Assembly: GCA_913061095.1 (NCBI GenBank)
Contig: CAJXVM010000013.1
Location: 62,001-126,000, forward strand
Reading direction: 5' to 3'
Origin: an uncultured Ignavibacteria bacterium
GTDB taxonomy: Bacteria > Bacteroidota > Ignavibacteria > SZUA-365
Length of the DNA: 64,000 bases
The notes under the pieces were generated by a model. The model saw only the letters and a list, made by a program, of their open reading frames with translations. It searched no databases and was not told where the DNA came from. The first letter of the stretch is position 1; each line of letters opens with the position of its first letter. The position numbers and the translations under genes were made by a program. Shown piece after piece: positions 48,873 through 58,262 of the stretch.

Positions 48873-49622
48873 TCAATCCTCCTCATCCTTCTCCCCTTCT
48901 TCCAGTTCCACCCAGTCTTCCCCGTCACGGATTTCCAGTGACGCGAAAGACATAGATCCCTCAAGCACAAGCTCCGGCGCGTTTCCGTTTTCCGGAGGAT
49001 TTCCCAGTGCGCGGTTGTCCGTCACCGATGCGGAGGATTTGCGCAGCTCCGGCGTCACGCGCCATGACTCCGGCACGTACAGCACGGCGCTGCTCATCCG
49101 CAGCGCGCAGTCGAGATGCATGAAGCGCGCGCCGGCCTTGCATTGCTGCAGTCCGCACTGTACCAGCGACATCGTTGCCGACAGCGATCCGCCCTCGAAG
49201 GCGGGCGCATGCACGATGATGCGGCTGCCGCGCAGCAGGTGGGAAACCTGCATGCGGTCATCCTCGATGAGGCGCTCCACGCTGGTGTTGCGCGGCTGGA
49301 TGAAGACCAGCCAGAGTCCGATGACGATCAGCGCAACCGGCCAGTACTGCGAGAGATCCCCGGGCAGCGCACCGAGCAGGAGCATCTGCAGCACCACGCC
49401 GATCATAAGGTCCTGCAGCGCGCCGCTGAATTTCCGCGTGTTGCGCGTGCGGATGCGCACGATGCCCGAGATTATGAAAATACTCGGCCAGTACAGCGTC
49501 AGCATTTCGAGCAGCCAGCCGAGGCGGAATATCTCGAAGTTGCCGAACAGCAGCAGTGCGCCAATGACAATGAGGATAACCGAAAAGGGGAAACGCGAGC
49601 GGTCGGCGGATTTCTCGGACAT
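48873..49622 (-). CDS. LiaF-like membrane protein
   Basis: 249 aa. Three to four N-terminal membrane helices in the LiaI/LiaF-like pattern (FSVILIVIGALLLFGNFEIF, LYWPSIFIISGIV, YWPVALIVIGLWLVF). A cytosolic or extracytoplasmic beta domain follows (about 130-220: LRGSRIIVHAPAFEGGSLSA ... LYVPESWRV) and an acidic tail. LiaF-type proteins modulate envelope-stress sensing in Firmicutes; in FCB bacteria the role is not known. The start is the ATG of MSEKSADRS. Confidence 0.75.
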   Translation of the reverse strand: MSEKSADRSRFPFSVILIVIGALLLFGNFEIFRLGWLLEMLTLYWPSIFIISGIVRIRTRNTRKFSGALQDLMIGVVLQMLLLGALPGDLSQYWPVALIVIGLWLVFIQPRNTSVERLIEDDRMQVSHLLRGSRIIVHAPAFEGGSLSATMSLVQCGLQQCKAGARFMHLDCALRMSSAVLYVPESWRVTPELRKSSASVTDNRALGNPPENGNAPELVLEGSMSFASLEIRDGEDWVELEEGEKDEED

Positions 49623-49777
49623 ACAGGCGGTGCGGTGTGTGGAATTCAATCCACAAATATCCGTCACACGGAAGCCAAGGTCAAGGCAGCGCAGAAAAAG
49701 CGGAATTTTATTAATTCAGAATTTTGTGAAATCTCTGAAACTTTGTAGTTTGCCCTGCGTAAGGGAATACAGGTGAG

Positions 49778-50251
49778 ATGATGAATTCACAGAAGATCAA
49801 AGAACAGCACGCATTTATCGATGAAATGGCCAGCACGATGGAGCGGGTCTTCGGACTCCCGCGCATGGGTGGCCGGCTCTGGGCCGTGCTGCTGATCACC
49901 GACAGGGAACAGCTTTCCGCTGAGGAACTCATGGAAGCTGTGCACGCGAGTCGCGGCTCGGTGAGCACCATGATACGGACCCTGGAAAGCATCGGCCTGG
50001 TGAACCGCGTGTCGCGGAGCGGCGACCGGCGCCATTATTACAAGGCCGCCGAGCCCGATGCGCTCATGCGCGCGGAGCTGGCGAGCATGAAACTGTTCAT
50101 CGAGCTGATGAACGCGGGGAAGCGGGTGATCGGTCCGGAGGACAGACGCGCCACGCAGCGGCTCGAGGACATCGTCGATCTCATGCAGTTCTTTGTGAAG
50201 GAATATGACGCGCTGTTAGAGCGCTGGCACAAACGGAAGACCCGGTCATGA
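49778..50251 (+). CDS. GbsR/MarR-family transcriptional regulator
   Basis: 157 aa. The winged helix-turn-helix (about 45-110) reads EELMEAVHASRGSVSTMIRTLESIGLVNRVSRSGDRRHYY, split here by the wing, as in GbsR proteins. GbsR factors usually repress transport operons and respond to a small ligand. It is the first gene of the six-gene export operon and overlaps the next gene by ATGA, so it probably autoregulates that operon. Confidence 0.87.
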   Translation: MMNSQKIKEQHAFIDEMASTMERVFGLPRMGGRLWAVLLITDREQLSAEELMEAVHASRGSVSTMIRTLESIGLVNRVSRSGDRRHYYKAAEPDALMRAELASMKLFIELMNAGKRVIGPEDRRATQRLEDIVDLMQFFVKEYDALLERWHKRKTRS

Positions 50252-51057
50252 ATCATTTCGGAACGTCAGGACAGAAACACATCATGAATCCCATTACAAA
50301 ACACATCGCCCATTATTTCCTGTCCGGTTGCATCGCCATCCTGCTCGCCGCCGCGCCGCTGGGCGCGCAGACGGCGAAGGAGCTGATATCCTACGGCGAG
50401 GATCAGCTCGAGGGCAAGACCAGCCGGGGCACGTACACGATGAACGTCGTGACGCCGGAATACGAACGGAACATGGAAATGAAATACTGGTGGGACGGCG
50501 AGAACGACCGCGCGCTGATCAAGACCATCGCGCCGAAAAAGGAAGAGGGAAACAAATGGCTCAAAATCGGCAACGAAATGTGGCAATACCTGAAGACGAC
50601 GGAGACGACAATAAAAATTCCGCCGTCGATGATGCTGCAGTCCTGGAACGGTTCGGATTTCACCAATGACGATCTCGCGCGGGAATCCGATGTGAGCGAT
50701 GACTACACGCACAAAATCATCGCGGAGGAGAGCAACAGGGGGGAAGCGTGCTGGAAAATCGCCTCCACGCCGAAGCCCAACGCTCCGGTGGTCTGGGGCC
50801 GCCTCTACACCTGGGTGCGAAAGAAAGACAAACTTCCATCCACCATACAGTACTACGAGGAAAACGGGAAGCTGGTGCGCACGATGGTGTACTCGGATTT
50901 CAAGATGATGGACGGCAGGAAGATCCCTGCAAAATGGACGATGTACAACAAGGTGAAAGAGGGACATCGCACCGAATTCATTGTTGAGGACGTGGACTTC
51001 AACACCGACATCCCTGACCGCATGTTCTCATTCCGCGAACTTGAACGAGGAAACTAG
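50248..51057 (+). CDS. LolA-like outer-membrane lipoprotein-sorting protein
   Basis: 269 aa. Signal peptide ending APLGAQ, then a half-barrel LolA/LppX-like fold (KTSRGTYTMNVVTPEYERNM, WLKIGNEMWQYLKTTETT, KIPPSMMLQSWNGSDFTNDD). This family carries lipid or lipoprotein between membranes. The ATG at 50248 overlaps the regulator stop; a second ATG at 50284 (MNPITKH) would give a more normal signal peptide. It sits upstream of ABC genes typical of lipoprotein or lipid export. Confidence 0.82.
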   Translation: MNHFGTSGQKHIMNPITKHIAHYFLSGCIAILLAAAPLGAQTAKELISYGEDQLEGKTSRGTYTMNVVTPEYERNMEMKYWWDGENDRALIKTIAPKKEEGNKWLKIGNEMWQYLKTTETTIKIPPSMMLQSWNGSDFTNDDLARESDVSDDYTHKIIAEESNRGEACWKIASTPKPNAPVVWGRLYTWVRKKDKLPSTIQYYEENGKLVRTMVYSDFKMMDGRKIPAKWTMYNKVKEGHRTEFIVEDVDFNTDIPDRMFSFRELERGN

Positions 51058-51059
51058 GC

Positions 51060-52289
51060 GTGAAACTGCTCGCAACCCTGGCCTGGCGCAATCTCTGGCG
51101 CAACCGCCGGCGGACGCTGATCACCGTGCTGGCCGTGATATTCGCGACATGGCTCTCGATCGCGATGCGGGGTCTTCAGCTCGGCACTTATGATCAGAAC
51201 ATCAGCTGGGCACTCAATCTCTTTTCCGGGTACATCCAGCTGCAGCACCCCGGCTTTGAGGATAACCCGTCACTGCACAAGAGCTTCCGCTTTACCGATG
51301 AGATGCGCGCGCAGCTGGACGAGGACGCGCGCGTGCGCGGATATGCGCCCAGGATCTATGCCGACGGACTGGTCAGTCACATGGATAATTCGCTCGGCAC
51401 CGCGATCTTCGGCATCGATCCGGAGGTCGAAGCCGATGTGACGCGCTTCCGCAAGAAAATCGACAACGGACGCATGATCGCCGCGCGCTCCGGCGAAGGC
51501 ATCGTGGTCGGCAGAACGCTGCTGAAAAATCTCCGCGCGTCCGTCGGCGACACGGTCGTCATTCTCGCGCAGGGCTACGACGGCGCGATGGGAAACATGA
51601 AATACCGTATTGCCGGAGCCGTCAAGACCGGCATGGCGGAATTCGACCGCGCGGCCGTCTTCATGGGCATTGACGATCTCTCCGAGCTTGTCAGCATGCC
51701 CGGGAAGATCAGCGTCGTAGCCGTGTCGCTGCATGATCTGCATGAGGTGGACGCCGTCGCGGCGGACCTCAATGCCGCGGTGGATACGTCGAAGGTGCGC
51801 GCGCTCACGTGGGAGAAGGTGATGCCGGAGATGAAGCAGTCCATTCAGCTCGACAACTACAGCGGCATGCTCATGCTGGCCATCCTCATCATCGTCGTGG
51901 CGTTCGGCATTCTCAACACCGTGCTCATGTCGGTGACCGAGCGCTTTCGCGAGTTCGGCATCCTGCTGTCGATCGGCATGCCGCAGAAGCAGCTGGTGAT
52001 GCTGGTATTCATCGAGACCATGTACATCGCGCTCGTCGGCATTCTCATCGGAAACGTGCTCGCACTCGGCGTGAACTGGTACCTCAGCGAATATCCCATC
52101 ACGTTCTCGGGCGAATACGCCGCAATGATGGAAGAATACGGCTGGCTGCCGCAGATGCACAGTGTCATCCGCCTGTCGAGCTTTTTCAATACATCGCTGG
52201 CCGTCATCATGCTGTCGCTGGTCGCGGCGTTTTATCCGCTCTACCGGGTCTACAAACTGGAACCGCTCAAAGGAATAAGGTACACCTGA
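51060..52289 (+). CDS. ABC transporter permease, FtsX/LolCE type (first)
   Basis: 409 aa from a GTG. Four membrane helices: one near the N terminus (RRTLITVLAVIFATWLSIAM) and three near the C terminus, with a large periplasmic MacB-like domain (about 50-270). This is the LolC/LolE/MacB topology, in which the permease pulls substrate from the inner membrane. It lies 2 bp after the LolA-like gene and 1 bp before the second permease. Confidence 0.88.
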   Translation: MKLLATLAWRNLWRNRRRTLITVLAVIFATWLSIAMRGLQLGTYDQNISWALNLFSGYIQLQHPGFEDNPSLHKSFRFTDEMRAQLDEDARVRGYAPRIYADGLVSHMDNSLGTAIFGIDPEVEADVTRFRKKIDNGRMIAARSGEGIVVGRTLLKNLRASVGDTVVILAQGYDGAMGNMKYRIAGAVKTGMAEFDRAAVFMGIDDLSELVSMPGKISVVAVSLHDLHEVDAVAADLNAAVDTSKVRALTWEKVMPEMKQSIQLDNYSGMLMLAILIIVVAFGILNTVLMSVTERFREFGILLSIGMPQKQLVMLVFIETMYIALVGILIGNVLALGVNWYLSEYPITFSGEYAAMMEEYGWLPQMHSVIRLSSFFNTSLAVIMLSLVAAFYPLYRVYKLEPLKGIRYT

Positions 52290-52290
52290 G

Positions 52291-53505
52291 ATGCTGCTCA
52301 CCATTGCATGGCGGAACATCTGGAGAAACCGCCGCCGCTCGATGATCGTGCTGATATCCGTCATCGTCGGAGTGGCCGCGATGATGTTTACCGACGGACT
52401 CTCGGTGGGTATGATCCACCAGATGCTCGACAACCGCATCGGCTCGCATACCTCGCACATCCAGATCCACGCGAAGGGATTCAACGACAACCGTGTCATC
52501 GGTAAAAACATCGAAAAGACGCGCATCGTCGAACATGCCATTGAACAGACGCCCGATATCCGGCACTGGAGCCGGCGCGTGGTGACCTACGGATTGCTCA
52601 GCAGTGCGCTCAGTTCATCGGGCGGACTGATCATCGGCGTCGAACCCGAACGCGAGCCGAATATCACCTCGATACGCGAATCCATCGTCGAGGGGGAATA
52701 TCTCAGCGGCGCGCCGCATGAAGTCGTCATCGGACGCAAGCTCGCCGAAAAGCTGCAGGTCGGCATCGGCGGCAAGGTCGTCGGCATGGCATCGGCCCTG
52801 AGCGGCGATGTGGGCTCGGATCTGTTCCGCGTCGTCGGCATCTACGAAACCGTGAGCTCGGAGTTCGACAAAACGCACATGTTCACCACGCTCGACAACG
52901 CGCAGAGCATGCTCGAACTCGACGACCGCGTACTTGAGTACGCCATCATCGTCGACGACATCAACCGCGTCGAAGAGGCGGCGGCGCAGCTGCGGCGGAA
53001 TCTCAGCGCCGACTACGAGGTGCTCAGCTACATTGACCTGCTGCCGCTGCTCGTCGCGCAGATGGAGATGTATGACGAGATGATGTACATCGTCTACATC
53101 ATCATCGGACTCGCGATGATCTTCGGTATCGTCAACACCATGCTCATGTCGGTATTCGAGCGCATCCGGGAATTCGGCGTGCTCATGGCCATCGGCATGA
53201 AGAACGCCTATGTGTTCAGAATGGTCATGATCGAGGCGTTCATTCTCGGCGTCATCGGAACCGCGGTGGGACTCGGGCTCGGCGCGCTGTTCATTCTTGC
53301 CACCGGGTCGGTCGGCATTGACCTGAGCATGTTTGCCGAAAGCCTGACGGCCTTCGGTGCCGGTGCAATCATCTACCCGAAGCTGACGATGACCACCGTG
53401 GTCAATGTTGTCATCATCATACCGCTGACCGCGCTTGTCGGGGCGCTGTATCCCGCCGTCAAGGCCACGCGCCTGCAGCCGGTCACGGCGATCCGCTATG
53501 TCTGA
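52291..53505 (+). CDS. ABC transporter permease, FtsX/LolCE type (second)
   Basis: 404 aa, a paralogue of the gene before it. It starts LLTIAWRNIWRNRRRSMIV, has a MacB-like periplasmic domain and ends with the usual three helices (IVYIIIGLAMIFGIVNTML ... FGVLMAIGMKN). Two different permeases imply a LolCE-type heterodimer. It is translationally linked to the first permease. Confidence 0.88.
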   Translation: MLLTIAWRNIWRNRRRSMIVLISVIVGVAAMMFTDGLSVGMIHQMLDNRIGSHTSHIQIHAKGFNDNRVIGKNIEKTRIVEHAIEQTPDIRHWSRRVVTYGLLSSALSSSGGLIIGVEPEREPNITSIRESIVEGEYLSGAPHEVVIGRKLAEKLQVGIGGKVVGMASALSGDVGSDLFRVVGIYETVSSEFDKTHMFTTLDNAQSMLELDDRVLEYAIIVDDINRVEEAAAQLRRNLSADYEVLSYIDLLPLLVAQMEMYDEMMYIVYIIIGLAMIFGIVNTMLMSVFERIREFGVLMAIGMKNAYVFRMVMIEAFILGVIGTAVGLGLGALFILATGSVGIDLSMFAESLTAFGAGAIIYPKLTMTTVVNVVIIIPLTALVGALYPAVKATRLQPVTAIRYV

Positions 53506-53615
53506 TCGCCGCAGGTACGCCGCGCCGCTGCAGGCGCTGCTGCACGCGTTGCGATCCGGCACCCGCTCGCTGCTGTTTCACTCTCACGCACATTCTCGAA
53601 ATATCGGATAGCATC

Positions 53616-54305
53616 ATGGAAGTCATTCGGCTCGAACAGATCGAAAAAATCTACTCCGACAACGGCGTGCCCGTGCACGCGCTGCGCGGCATCGACCTGC
53701 GCATTTCGCAGGGAGAATTCACGGTCATCGCCGGACCGTCGGGCTCCGGCAAGACCACGCTGCTCAACGTCATGGGGGCGCTGGACACTCCGACCGAGGG
53801 CACGGTATTTCTCGAGAACGAAGACATCAGCGAAAAATCCCGTGCGGAAATCTCGGCTTTCCGTCTCGAGAAGCTGGGCTTTGTGTTCCAGGCCTTCAAT
53901 CTCATTCCGGTACTGACGGCGATGGAGAACATCGAATTCGCCATGATGCTGCTCGGTATTGAGGAAAAGCACCGCCGCGACCGCGCGCGAGAGATCATGT
54001 CGGAACTCGGCATCGAGGAACTCGCCGGCAAGCGTCCGAATGAAATGAGCGGCGGACAGCAGCAGCGAGTCGCCGTCGCGCGGGCCATTGTCAACAATCC
54101 TTCCATCATCCTCGCGGACGAGCCCACCGCCAATCTCGATTCCGACACCGGCGCGAACCTCCTCGATCTGATGGAGAAAATGAACCGCGACCACAATCTC
54201 ACCTTCATTTTCTCCTCGCATGACCGCCAGGTCATCGACCGCGCGCATCGCCTGATCCGTCTCACCGACGGACGCATCGAAAGCGACGAGCAGGTGAAGC
54301 AATGA
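53616..54305 (+). CDS. ABC transporter ATPase, LolD/MacB type
   Basis: 229 aa. Walker A GPSGSGKTT, Q-loop VFQAFNLIP, signature MSGGQQQR, Walker B ILADEPTANLD and the switch His in FSSHDRQV are all intact. The sequence is of the LolD/MacB class that powers FtsX-type permeases. A 110-bp gap separates it from the permeases, and it overlaps the barrel gene by ATGA. Confidence 0.94.
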   Translation: MEVIRLEQIEKIYSDNGVPVHALRGIDLRISQGEFTVIAGPSGSGKTTLLNVMGALDTPTEGTVFLENEDISEKSRAEISAFRLEKLGFVFQAFNLIPVLTAMENIEFAMMLLGIEEKHRRDRAREIMSELGIEELAGKRPNEMSGGQQQRVAVARAIVNNPSIILADEPTANLDSDTGANLLDLMEKMNRDHNLTFIFSSHDRQVIDRAHRLIRLTDGRIESDEQVKQ

Positions 54306-55591
54306 AAGGAACACGCGCGCGTGCATGCGGGAAAACGTCGGCCTCGGCCGGCAGACGGGCACGGGCAATCGCATTCAGGGGGATATGCGCGCGTGCGTTC
54401 GCCATTCTCATCGTATGTCTGCTGATGCGCGCGCCCGCGCACGCACAGCCGGAGCTCGAATTCTCGGGCTACGTCATCGACCTGCCCAGCTATCAGCGCA
54501 TGCCAGACTACGCGAGCGAGCTTCCGCCGTTCATGGCGGATCAGTTTGATCTCGACCGCAACATGGGCGTGAACCTGATCCGGCTGCGTCTGCGTCCCAC
54601 CCTGCATCTCTGGGACGGCGCCAGCATCGCGCTTGAGCACGAGATCAACGAGACCGTCATGACGCAGGAGATGCTCTTCGGCGACATCCCCGACATCACG
54701 AATCGGCAGCTCGTCGATCTGCGCTGGCATCCCGTCACCGAGGATCACTGGCAGATGCAGCACTACGTCGACCGGCTGTACTTCCGGCAGAATTTCCTGT
54801 GGGGAAGCATTGTCGCAGGACGCCAGCGCATCTCCTGGGGCACCGGACGCATCTGGAATCCCACCGACCTGTTCAATCCCATCAATCCCGCCAGCTTCGA
54901 CAAGATCGAAAAGGACGGCGCCGACGCGGTGTCATTCAAGTACTATTTCGGCTCCTTCACCGACCTCCAGGTCGTGTGGAATCCACGACGCGCGCGCGGG
55001 CAGCGTGACGGCGCCCCGGACGCGCCCGACAGCAGCAACTACGGGGCGCGCTTCCGCACGAATTTCGGGGAGTTCGACCTATCCGTCATGGGGGGATGGT
55101 TCGATCGGCGCACCGTGCTGGGAGGGGATTTCGCCGGGAATCTCTTCGACGCGGGCGTGCGCGGGGAGATGATTTTCGTGATGGACGGCGACGGTTCCGG
55201 GCAGGACGGTTACGCGCGTTTCATCCTCGGGGCGGATTATCAGCTCACCGGGAAACTGTACGGTGTCGTTGAATACCTGCACAACGGTGAGGGAAAGGAG
55301 GATGCGGGCTCATACGAATTGACCCGGCTGTTCCGCGGGGAGATCCTCAACCTCGCGCGCGACTACGTCTATCTCGGCGGCACATATCAACTGCACCCGC
55401 TCGTGACCGGCAGCCTGGGCGTGATCGGCGGACTCACCGACGGCAGCGGCTTCCTGAACGCCACCGCCTCGTGGTCCTCGTCCGACAACTCCGTCGTCAG
55501 CGCGGGACTGCTCCTCCCCTACGGATCCCCCCGTGACGAATACTGGTATTACCCCTCCTCGCTCTACCTCAAAGGCGAATACTACTTCTGA
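54302..55591 (+). CDS. Outer-membrane beta-barrel protein of the export operon
   Basis: 429 aa. A long signal peptide (about 49 residues, ending PAHAQ) is followed by alternating beta strands typical of a porin-like barrel (DITNRQLVDLRWHPV, SIVAGRQRISWGTGRIWNPT, YVYLGGTYQLHPLVTGSLG). The last residue is Phe (KGEYYF), the standard BAM recognition signal. The GRQRISWGTGR segment recalls DUF1302/alginate-export-like porins. It may be the outer-membrane exit or receptor of the ABC system; that is inference from coupling. Confidence 0.83.
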   Translation: MKGTRARACGKTSASAGRRARAIAFRGICARAFAILIVCLLMRAPAHAQPELEFSGYVIDLPSYQRMPDYASELPPFMADQFDLDRNMGVNLIRLRLRPTLHLWDGASIALEHEINETVMTQEMLFGDIPDITNRQLVDLRWHPVTEDHWQMQHYVDRLYFRQNFLWGSIVAGRQRISWGTGRIWNPTDLFNPINPASFDKIEKDGADAVSFKYYFGSFTDLQVVWNPRRARGQRDGAPDAPDSSNYGARFRTNFGEFDLSVMGGWFDRRTVLGGDFAGNLFDAGVRGEMIFVMDGDGSGQDGYARFILGADYQLTGKLYGVVEYLHNGEGKEDAGSYELTRLFRGEILNLARDYVYLGGTYQLHPLVTGSLGVIGGLTDGSGFLNATASWSSSDNSVVSAGLLLPYGSPRDEYWYYPSSLYLKGEYYF

Positions 55592-55664: not shown

Positions 55665-55697
55665 AAACCTCCCAAAACAGGGTGTTTTGTGAGGTTT
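55665..55697. terminator. Bidirectional terminator-like hairpin
   Basis: AAACCTC, one mismatch, then CAAAACA pairs across a GGG loop with TGTTTTG, one mismatch, GAGGTTT. Tracts of T flank it in both directions. It separates the export operon from the convergent T9SS gene. Confidence 0.7.
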
Positions 55698-55707
55698 TGG
55701 CGATAGA

Positions 55708-57225
55708 TCACCGCATCAAAACCATCTTGCGCAACCGCACGACATTCCCCGCGGTGAGGCGGGTGAAATAGATGCCCGGGCGGAGTCCCGCCGCGTCGAA
55801 ACGCAGCGTATGTTCGCCGGCAGCGCGGAGTTCGGCATCCACCAGTCGCCGGACCTCGCGTCCCAGCGCGTCGGTGACCGTCACCGTGACCGGCATGGCC
55901 CGCGGCAGTGTGAAACGCACCGCGGCCGAAGCGGTGAAGGGATTCGGGTGCACGGGATGCAGCACGCACCGCAACGGGGTGGGCGGACCAGCTGCGCCTG
56001 TGGTCCGCACGCTCGCGATGGACAGTCGGTGAGCGCATGGGATCGGATTGAGTTCGTCGTCGAAGGCGATCACCCGAATCTCCACGTTGCTCCGCGTAAT
56101 ACGGTTCGTCACATCGATGATCCATTCGAACGTCTCTTCCTCGCCGCCGTCGAGTGACAGCTTCGGATCGAAGCTCACCGGATTCGGCGAGGCCGGATTC
56201 AGGCTCAAACCGTCCGATATCGGGAAGTAGAGGAGGACCCGATCGATCGAGCCGACCTGATGCGAAATGTTCCGGATGGTGTATCGAACTGTGAAGGGAT
56301 TCGGTTCCACCTCGGTGCCGGCAGCGTTCAGAGCGAGTGAATCCGGGATCTCGAGCAGGCAGGAATAATATGGCAGGAGTCCCGGGACCGGCACGTCGCA
56401 ACGTACCTCCACTGAATCCAGCCGCATCCCCGCTTCGTTCACACCGGTGACCAGGAAGCTGAATATCGGCCGCACGTCATACCGAAGGCGCTTCGTCCAG
56501 CGCACCGTCCATTCGAGCTCTGGAATCGGATCGCCAACCTGCCAGTGCTCCATGCTCATCGGATTGAAGTATTTTGTTTTCGGCTGACCGGGCGGATCGA
56601 GTACCACGTCCTCCGGAAGGACGATCGTCCCGGTCACGCTGTCCGCGCGCATGTTTCCCGTGTTCACGCAGGTCAGCCGCACATCAAACGGATTGGGAGC
56701 GTAGCTCCCCAGTTCATCATCGAATCTCAGTGAATCCGGCGTAACGCAGCGGGGACTGAGTATCGGCCAGGCGAGCTTCGGGATAACGACCTCCGCTTCA
56801 CAGTACGAGGAATCCGCGTTGCGCGCCCGCACCCACACGCCGACCGTGTAGCGTTTCTCCACCGATGTCGGCGGATGCTGAATCATCCACTGGGCGGTGC
56901 CGGACTGTCCGGGAAAGAGCCGCGGTTTCTGCACGAGTTTGATCACGTTGTCCGGCGCATCGGCCCCCGCGAGCCGGAGACTGCTGTGGAGGTCGTCCGG
57001 CAGTTCGATGCGCGCAGTGATCGAATCGGTGAGCTGATTGCCGATATTCTCCACCGTCACGGTCACCGGGAACGGCATCGGATCGTAGCGCAGGTTTTCG
57101 TAATCGGCCGTGATCTCCGGAACGGAGACCCCGCAGCTGAGTATCGGCTGCTGCGCTGCCGCGGGAGTGATTATACATGCAAATACTAGCGCGACCAGAA
57201 TGCCTCGTTTCGGTTGCGATCCCAT
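55708..57225 (-). CDS. Secreted protein with three two-cysteine repeats and a T9SS tail
   Basis: 505 aa. Signal peptide ending AAAQ. Three repeats of about 120-135 aa follow, of the same kind as in the 9.4-16.3 kb proteins (LSCGVSVPE ... YDPMPFPVTVTVENIG; CVTPDSLRFDDELGSYAPNP; SCLLEIPDSLALNAAGTE). A T9SS sorting tail (HPNPFTASAAV ... GIYFTRLTAG ... MVLMR) closes it. It lacks the cohesin-like and VWA domains, so it is the smallest of the three paralogues. It is encoded alone, about 40 kb from the other two. Confidence 0.82.
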   Translation of the reverse strand: MGSQPKRGILVALVFACIITPAAAQQPILSCGVSVPEITADYENLRYDPMPFPVTVTVENIGNQLTDSITARIELPDDLHSSLRLAGADAPDNVIKLVQKPRLFPGQSGTAQWMIQHPPTSVEKRYTVGVWVRARNADSSYCEAEVVIPKLAWPILSPRCVTPDSLRFDDELGSYAPNPFDVRLTCVNTGNMRADSVTGTIVLPEDVVLDPPGQPKTKYFNPMSMEHWQVGDPIPELEWTVRWTKRLRYDVRPIFSFLVTGVNEAGMRLDSVEVRCDVPVPGLLPYYSCLLEIPDSLALNAAGTEVEPNPFTVRYTIRNISHQVGSIDRVLLYFPISDGLSLNPASPNPVSFDPKLSLDGGEEETFEWIIDVTNRITRSNVEIRVIAFDDELNPIPCAHRLSIASVRTTGAAGPPTPLRCVLHPVHPNPFTASAAVRFTLPRAMPVTVTVTDALGREVRRLVDAELRAAGEHTLRFDAAGLRPGIYFTRLTAGNVVRLRKMVLMR

Positions 57226-57878: not shown

Positions 57879-58166
57879 TTATGCAGCGAGTTCGAGCCGG
57901 ACGGTTCTGCCGATTCGCGCCTCGAGCCGGATCAGCATTTCCAGGTTGAATTTCTGCCACTTCCCCCGAACCAGATCCGACACACGCGACTGTGTGATGC
58001 CCAGCAGCTCAGCTGCCTGAAACTGCGTCAGTCCGTGCTCCTTGATATAGAGACGCAAATCAGCCATCAGGCGCGCCCGCATCTGCAGGACCCCTGCTTC
58101 GGCTTCATCGAAACCGAGAGTGGTGAATATGTTTTTGTCAGACTTATTCCGGGCGCGTTTGCTCAT
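57879..58166 (-). CDS. HigA2-type XRE antitoxin-like regulator
   Basis: 95 aa. The N-terminal FTTLGFDEAEA segment and the helix-turn-helix LTQFQAAELLGITQSRVSDL match HigA-type antitoxins that pair with Gp49/HigB toxins. The C terminus (LEARIGRTVRLEL) is also typical. The same frame extends upstream without a stop into a toxin-like fragment (see next), so the real start may be the ATG at 58262, giving a 127-aa fused product. It probably binds the palindrome just upstream. Confidence 0.8.
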   Translation of the reverse strand: MSKRARNKSDKNIFTTLGFDEAEAGVLQMRARLMADLRLYIKEHGLTQFQAAELLGITQSRVSDLVRGKWQKFNLEMLIRLEARIGRTVRLELAA

Positions 58167-58262
58167 TCTCTTTCTCCGATCAGTGTATATCGCCTGCGAG
58201 CAAGTTTCAGGAAACGACCGCAGATCGTTCAGACTTGAGCCAGGAAAAACAACCGGCTTCAT
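58167..58262 (-). pseudogene. Remnant of a Gp49/HigB-type toxin, in frame with the antitoxin
   Basis: Starting at the ATG at 58262, the frame begins KPVVFPGSSLNDLRSFPETC, which looks like the first 20-25 residues of phage Gp49-like (HigB) toxins. The remaining 80 or so residues of a normal toxin, including the catalytic region, are missing, and the frame runs straight into the antitoxin. A deletion inside the toxin gene is the simplest explanation. Confidence 0.6.

Follow-up and report, generated by a model that had tools for sequence, protein, structure and literature searches.

The window analysed here is a 64,000-nucleotide stretch of the genome of an uncultured Ignavibacteria bacterium (assembly GCA_913061095.1, contig CAJXVM010000013.1, positions 62,001 to 126,000). 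At 49778-55591 it carries six collinear open reading frames (ORFs), all on the plus strand, which are referred to here as the operon. They encode, in order, a winged-helix regulator of the MarR/GbsR type (157 residues, 49778..50251), a LolA-like periplasmic carrier (50248..51057), two permeases (A, 409 residues, GTG start, 51060..52289; B, 404 residues, 52291..53505), a LolD-like ATP-binding cassette (ABC) ATPase (229 residues, 53616..54305) and a predicted outer-membrane barrel (429 residues, 54302..55591). An original prediction, made from the letters alone, had named these six genes in this place and order, and the ORF calls, domain searches and a structural model bore it out. It had also described the genes as joined by overlaps or very short gaps, which was true of four of the five junctions (in gene order, a 4-base overlap, a 2-base gap, a 1-base gap and, at the last junction, another 4-base overlap) but not of the 110-base gap between the permease B and ATPase genes.

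The regulator matched MarR in Pfam (3.8e-9), and its best NCBIfam match was CudC, which we take to be a GbsR-type protein (2e-11; at 44 bits it is under the cut-off of 218 and is confined to the N-terminal part). The carrier was assigned by Pfam to LolA_like (PF17131, 3.4e-55) alone, with no match to the LolA family PF03548. Its probable start, at 50284, is later than the ORF start and agrees better with relatives, and its N-terminus reads directly as a hydrophobic signal. Both permeases contain FtsX (6.4e-18 and 7.8e-17) and MacB_PCD domains. The ATPase matched ABC_tran (1.4e-35), and direct reading of its sequence found intact what we take to be the Walker A, signature, Walker B and H-loop motifs. 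The sixth protein, the barrel, had no Pfam or NCBIfam family match.

Separation from the Lol system and conserved linkage

The operon shares the families of its permeases and ATPase, and the fold of its carrier, with the Lol system (LolABCDE), but it has a barrel in place of LolB and a PF17131 carrier. Since the permeases and ATPase scored best against the LolC/E and LolD models, a second Lol system with lipoproteins as cargo was considered. The NCBIfam cut-offs were not reached: the permeases gave 127.8 and 147.4 bits for TIGR02212 (LolCE, cut-off 362.45) and the ATPase gave 223.8 bits for TIGR02211 (LolD, cut-off 307.75). A separate lolCDE, which the original prediction had proposed to look for, was sought in the window's genome, an assembly of 4.6 Mb in 42 contigs with a listed completeness of 100%. 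A LolCDE-like set was found beside prfB on contig C8; its permeases score 292 and 244 bits against the LolC/E model and its ATPase scores 272 bits against LolD. This set is also below the equivalog cut-offs, yet much closer to the models than the genes of the operon. A canonical LolA (PF03548) is encoded on contig C35, directly behind ftsK. Because a LolCDE-like set and an ftsK-lolA pair exist elsewhere in the genome, the operon is a paralogous system and not the cell's ordinary Lol machinery; the possibility that it is the only lolCDE copy was therefore rejected.

Scores so far under those of the C8 set speak against lipoproteins as cargo, as does a carrier of PF17131 rather than PF03548, in whose family the loop that joins predicted strands 2 and 3 has no invariant arginine. 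Published work on LolA3 points the same way. In the Porphyromonas gingivalis protein the groove is hydrophobic, the LolA arginine and the LolB leucine are both absent, and binding to LolB is very weak (PMC13103446); deletion of lolA3 spared gliding and T9/amylase secretion (PMC11885536). A surface lipoprotein reporter was at the cell surface without any LolA or LolB (PMC13103446, PMC11885536). Lipoproteins are thus an improbable cargo.

Linkage of the barrel with the other genes was counted in a phylum sample of 296 genomes, with barrel relatives in 74 and carrier-profile matches in 99. All 77 barrel rows and 89 carrier rows were used, the latter being the 84 rows that span 407.8 down to 118.8 bits, taken without omission, and five weaker ones near barrel matches; the other weaker carrier rows were unused, and the count of 66 strong loci was unaffected. 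Strong carriers (240 bits or more) occurred in 66 genomes. A barrel was present in 66/66 of these, compared with about 16 expected if the two were independent (66 x 74 / 296, which ignores shared ancestry). At 62 of the 66 strong-carrier loci, carrier and barrel share contig and strand and are no more than 12 kb apart, the barrel typically 3.1-4.4 kb downstream, and 71 of the 77 barrel loci had a linked carrier. Among the exceptions, G275 and G196 were inspected and G104 and G123 were left out; the block of G275 is divided across contig ends, and G196 is taken up below.

A second count was made from loci picked by their barrel. From 124 loci with a barrel, 10 redundant ones (at least 95% barrel identity) were dropped, and the count, which omits the window's locus and 20 loci chosen as exceptions or for second-class carriers, covered 101 non-redundant loci, 78 of them with at least 6.5 kb upstream. 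ABC genes lay upstream in 76 of these 78, and ABC genes together with a carrier in 69, leaving nine exceptions. Among the best 80 of 559 places encoding a barrel relative, the block was seen in records named Ignavibacteria, Melioribacteraceae, Calditrichota, KSB1, Rhodothermales, Prolixibacteraceae, Elusimicrobia, Burkholderiales and Gammaproteobacteria, among others; Vibrio campbellii (NZ_CP050465) has the identical five-gene order. The gene order and linkage return in distant genomes much more often than chance would allow, and the LolA-permease-permease-ATPase-barrel arrangement is strongly conserved. Of the six-gene order first proposed, the five genes from LolA to barrel are widely kept and the regulator is not fixed. 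With separate Lol genes in the genome and the barrel kept with the ABC genes, the claim that the locus is more than a Lol system stands as far as the barrel is concerned.

The permeases vary in form. Single-permease forms were seen in Elusimicrobia and Gammaproteobacteria records, although these were called with an ORF finder and may include missed genes. Four Betaproteobacteria loci (L139, L145, L149, L153) have a fused permease of about 830 residues in the order carrier, ATPase, fused permease, barrel. Doubled permease pairs lie between carrier and ATPase at L104, L105, L106, L113 and L118, where one ATPase may serve four permease genes. At L192 (G200, contig C255), two carrier-ABC blocks adjoin each other on the same strand; the first kind is that of the window, and the other has the second gene arrangement described below for weak carriers.

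Carrier, barrel and RND-powered relatives

The carrier was modelled with a mean predicted local distance difference test (pLDDT) score of 90. Its nearest solved folds are P. gingivalis LolA3 (9tp6) and the DUF1329 protein 4z48 (1.1e-19), so that the predicted fold is nearer to LolA3 and DUF1329 proteins than to canonical LolA, and its sequence is alignable with DUF1329 (hhalign probability 92.7). The LprG-PIM complex was also among the fold matches, showing that carriers of the LolA fold bind lipids. This would suit a role in outer-membrane maintenance, in which an endogenous lipid (phospholipid, glycolipid or terpenoid lipid) is delivered to the outer membrane, with the barrel serving for insertion or lateral exit and not as a channel leading out of the cell. 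The window's genome has one strong PF17131 match, the operon carrier, and two weak ones. One of the weak proteins (L086, 5218-6746, contig C21) is encoded directly 3' of an ABC-2 type membrane protein gene and may belong to a different carrier-linked ABC system.

The barrel, whose gene is single-copy in the window's genome, was modelled with AlphaFold2 from an alignment of 31 relatives (mean pLDDT 85). The model has 18 long strands and a phenylalanine at the C-terminal end, and the alignment has conserved residues that include a GRQRI.WG....WNPTDLFNP stretch. The top Foldseek match was AlgE (3.9e-11), and the matches just below it included Campylobacter MOMP and classical porins. The first 47 VIA-align matches, at Z 20.0 to 23.7 over 277-329 residues, were of the chitoporin, OprD/Occ, MOMP, AlgE, maltoporin and Wzi types; no Omp85 entry was among the matches shown. 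PDB sequence matches were to Cas12i (0.01 over 66 positions) and were judged to be chance. The modelled fold supports an outer-membrane pore and names no cargo. Folds of the OprD and chitoporin type serve uptake, and this likeness would also fit a system working inward, with the barrel admitting a hydrophobic nutrient, the carrier moving it inward and the ABC proteins delivering it to the inner membrane.

Pfam scans found no DUF1302 match for the window's barrel. The DUF1302 model was applied to ABC-type barrels of two Betaproteobacteria, and that of G297 fell just above the cut-off and that of G296 below it. The barrel of L187, which stands with a resistance-nodulation-division (RND) pump, matched DUF1302 at 2.1e-12 and the barrel profile at 37 bits. 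Since it matches both, it serves as an intermediate that ties the barrel family distantly to DUF1302.

L187 is one of six loci (with L180, L188, L189, L190 and L199) in which a weaker carrier accompanies a barrel-type gene and an MMPL/RND protein of 771-966 residues; at L189 the barrel is several genes apart from the carrier and MMPL genes. Further weak carriers are accompanied by ABC genes that are arranged differently (L182, L183, L184, L185, L186, L191). In a FastTree phylogeny of 104 carriers with a midpoint root, the RND-linked carriers formed one clade of 11 (support 0.906), of which eight were RND-only, one had both kinds nearby and two had no detected engine. Their grouping in a single clade makes the ABC and RND types look more like two old lineages than the product of frequent swapping. 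In the window's genome, MMPL matches were weak and away from the operon.

Several RND-type counterparts have been published. AmeABCD of Castellaniella defragrans joins an HAE3 RND pump with a DUF1329 protein of the LolA superfamily and an outer-membrane protein of the DUF1302 family, and its deletion lowered monoterpene tolerance and raised Nile Red influx (PMC6394551). In Pseudomonas putida, PP_0765/0766 with PP_2018/2019 are required on Tween 20 and are predicted to form transport complexes (PMC10866462). TOL_3187 of Thalassolituus, an MMPL-plus-LolA-like protein, and the product of the next gene were raised on C28 alkane (PMC6304351), and MMPL-LolA operons of P. gingivalis and P. intermedia were strongly raised under iron limitation (PMC10434189). 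In Prevotella nigrescens, MMPL, LolA and DUF1302 genes stand together. As in these cassettes, the operon brings together a pump, a LolA-fold carrier and a barrel; its PF17131 assignment and match to 4z48 give it a LolA-superfamily periplasmic protein like that of the Ame type, its carrier can be aligned with DUF1329 and its barrel has a distant, tentative tie to DUF1302 through intermediates. The operon differs in having an ATP-driven type VII ABC pump where the cassettes have an RND pump, a carrier of a separate clade, and a barrel of about 430 rather than about 620 residues. Plasmid searches (6 and 5 records) gave no sign of a mobile ABC form; most of the records were large replicons, and one was a 23.9-kb plasmid that carries an MMPL-LolA pair. 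On plasmid p1 of Pseudoalteromonas rhizosphaerae (L202, 3628-12174), an MMPL transporter and LolA-like pair with no barrel between directly adjoins gmtY, an integrase gene and gmtX, a gamma-mobile-trio element.

The permeases share MacB-type periplasmic core domains with MacAB-TolC, and pumps of that type carry out outward ABC transport. Judged by the domains of its six proteins, the operon differs from it in lacking an HlyD-type membrane-fusion adaptor and a TolC-type channel and in having an unfused ATPase. The nearest published idea of an ABC-LolA-barrel system is Borrelia BBJ23-29, where a LolCDE/MacB-like ABC transporter, a LolA-like carrier and an outer-membrane protein are clustered and ATP-driven movement of a non-polar ligand was proposed (PMC13078400). 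That cluster has a single permease, two TPR proteins and an Omp85-family outer-membrane protein (PMC13078400), in contrast to the two permeases and the predicted porin-like 18-strand barrel of the operon. No description of the ABC-LolA-porin block itself was found in literature searches aimed at it, which covered few subscription papers and no bioRxiv preprints.

Regulators and flanking features

The regulator was surveyed at 67 loci with 1.5 kb upstream of the carrier, using two small profiles built from five TetR and three MarR sequences. TetR-type genes were found at 28 loci, MarR/GbsR-type genes at 3 and neither at 36, the last figure being an upper bound because the profiles are small. 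The cultured relatives Maribellus sediminis (L165) and Mangrovibacterium lignilyticum (L170) each have a block of the TetR type. The original prediction had given the system its own sensor. In the window, and in a few genomes besides, the block is indeed headed by a GbsR/MarR-type gene, but with TetR-type genes commoner and neither type seen at about half of the loci, GbsR as a defining part was rejected. When neighbouring ORFs at the fetched loci were clustered, no family other than the TetR group was conserved across the range and no clue to the cargo emerged; the next commonest neighbour was a gene of 303 residues at 10 loci.

That the clustering yielded no conserved biosynthetic or catabolic neighbour fits a housekeeping lipid, and another LolA/LolB pair, in the flexirubin operon of F. 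johnsoniae (PMC11885536), also favours lipid maintenance. However, the distribution is patchy (66/296 phylum genomes), TetR/MarR control at part of the loci suggests an occasional trigger, and the published work on RND-type relatives deals with terpenes and detergents. We regard lipid maintenance as doubtful, though it deserves more weight than a lipoprotein cargo.

On the 5' side, the block is bounded by a divergent gene for a LiaF-like membrane protein (48873-49667, minus strand, Pfam), and the 110-base gap at 49668-49777 is common to this gene and the operon. Just 5' of the regulator gene, a dyad search found an imperfect 11-base dyad with a 3-base spacer (49715..49739), a candidate operator and the sole match in the whole genome at up to 3 mismatches. 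When the gap was shuffled by mononucleotides 1000 times, 54 of the shuffles contained an equally good dyad, and the candidate is therefore a lead only, despite its uniqueness. On the 3' side lies a convergent gene with a type IX secretion system (T9SS) sorting domain (55708-57225, minus strand, Pfam/NCBIfam). Between the convergent gene ends, a 15-base inverted repeat with a 3-base spacer (55665..55697) is a possible terminator that the terminator scan did not pick up; promoter and terminator scans yielded no more than in shuffles. Further on, at 57879-58262 (minus strand), the window encodes a small HTH_37-type regulator (6.2e-15), a type that frequently has toxin partners.

Cargo and direction of transport

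The operon would most likely work outward, by ABC extraction, carrier transfer and barrel release under ligand-responsive control. The ABC pump would extract the cargo outward, and the LolA-like protein, judging from its fold, would take it into its groove and cross the periplasm. From linkage and fold, the 18-strand barrel would receive the cargo from the carrier and release it outside or into the outer leaflet, and the MarR/GbsR-type protein may control the operon in response to a ligand. That the system uses its carrier to export hydrophobic small molecules or lipids across the envelope, and does not sort lipoproteins, is a reading to which we give about an even chance. Complex formation, direction, cargo and induction are all points that we infer. 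The export reading draws on the separate Lol genes, the conserved carrier-ABC-barrel linkage, the porin-like barrel fold, a carrier fold nearest to LolA3 and DUF1329, the related carriers and barrels found with MMPL/RND pumps, and the published data on AmeABCD, Tween 20 and LolA3.

Uptake is the rival that bears on direction. The need for PP_0765/0766 during growth on Tween 20 and the induction of the Thalassolituus proteins on C28 alkane would fit it, as would the barrel's likeness to OprD-type proteins and chitoporin. Characterised type VII ABC transporters act outward, however, and no catabolic genes recurred beside the block in the neighbour clustering. The AmeABCD transport assay pointed to efflux (PMC6394551), and outward working was stated for BBJ26/27 too (PMC13078400). 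Uptake is thus very unlikely.

Several observations weigh against export. Porin-like folds serve uptake too, and with the small TetR and MarR profiles ligand-sensing regulators were not found at 36/67 loci. G196 is a true exception to the linkage: its ABC block and barrel lie on different contigs, and the ATPase gene is followed by other genes. In a direct profile comparison, the barrel matched three DUF1302 sequences weakly (52 columns, probability 17), and the DUF1302 link leans on an intermediate and on marginal DUF1302 matches of ABC-type barrels. The LolA3 papers treat relatives about 26% identical by structure alignment, not the clade of the window's carrier.

Well-studied two-membrane export pumps mostly form a continuous duct. 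A soluble carrier and a porin-shaped barrel that stay with an ABC pump in several phyla, together with related carriers and barrels that stay with RND pumps, suggest a shuttle-type second solution for hydrophobic cargo. With a little less than even confidence, we propose a class of carrier-based exporters that combine a LolA-fold shuttle with an 18-strand porin-like exit, lack an adaptor/TolC duct and are powered by ABC or RND pumps; its ABC branch would take in the two-permease, single, fused and doubled-permease forms, beside an RND/HAE3 branch. If this is true, the ABC branch would represent an ATP-driven route, so far undescribed, by which hydrophobic compounds or lipids leave diderm cells. 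It would have been masked by the label 'outer membrane lipoprotein-sorting protein', and a common annotation that implies lipoprotein sorting would be corrected. The operon offers clear deletion targets and one soluble protein whose bound ligand mass spectrometry could read.

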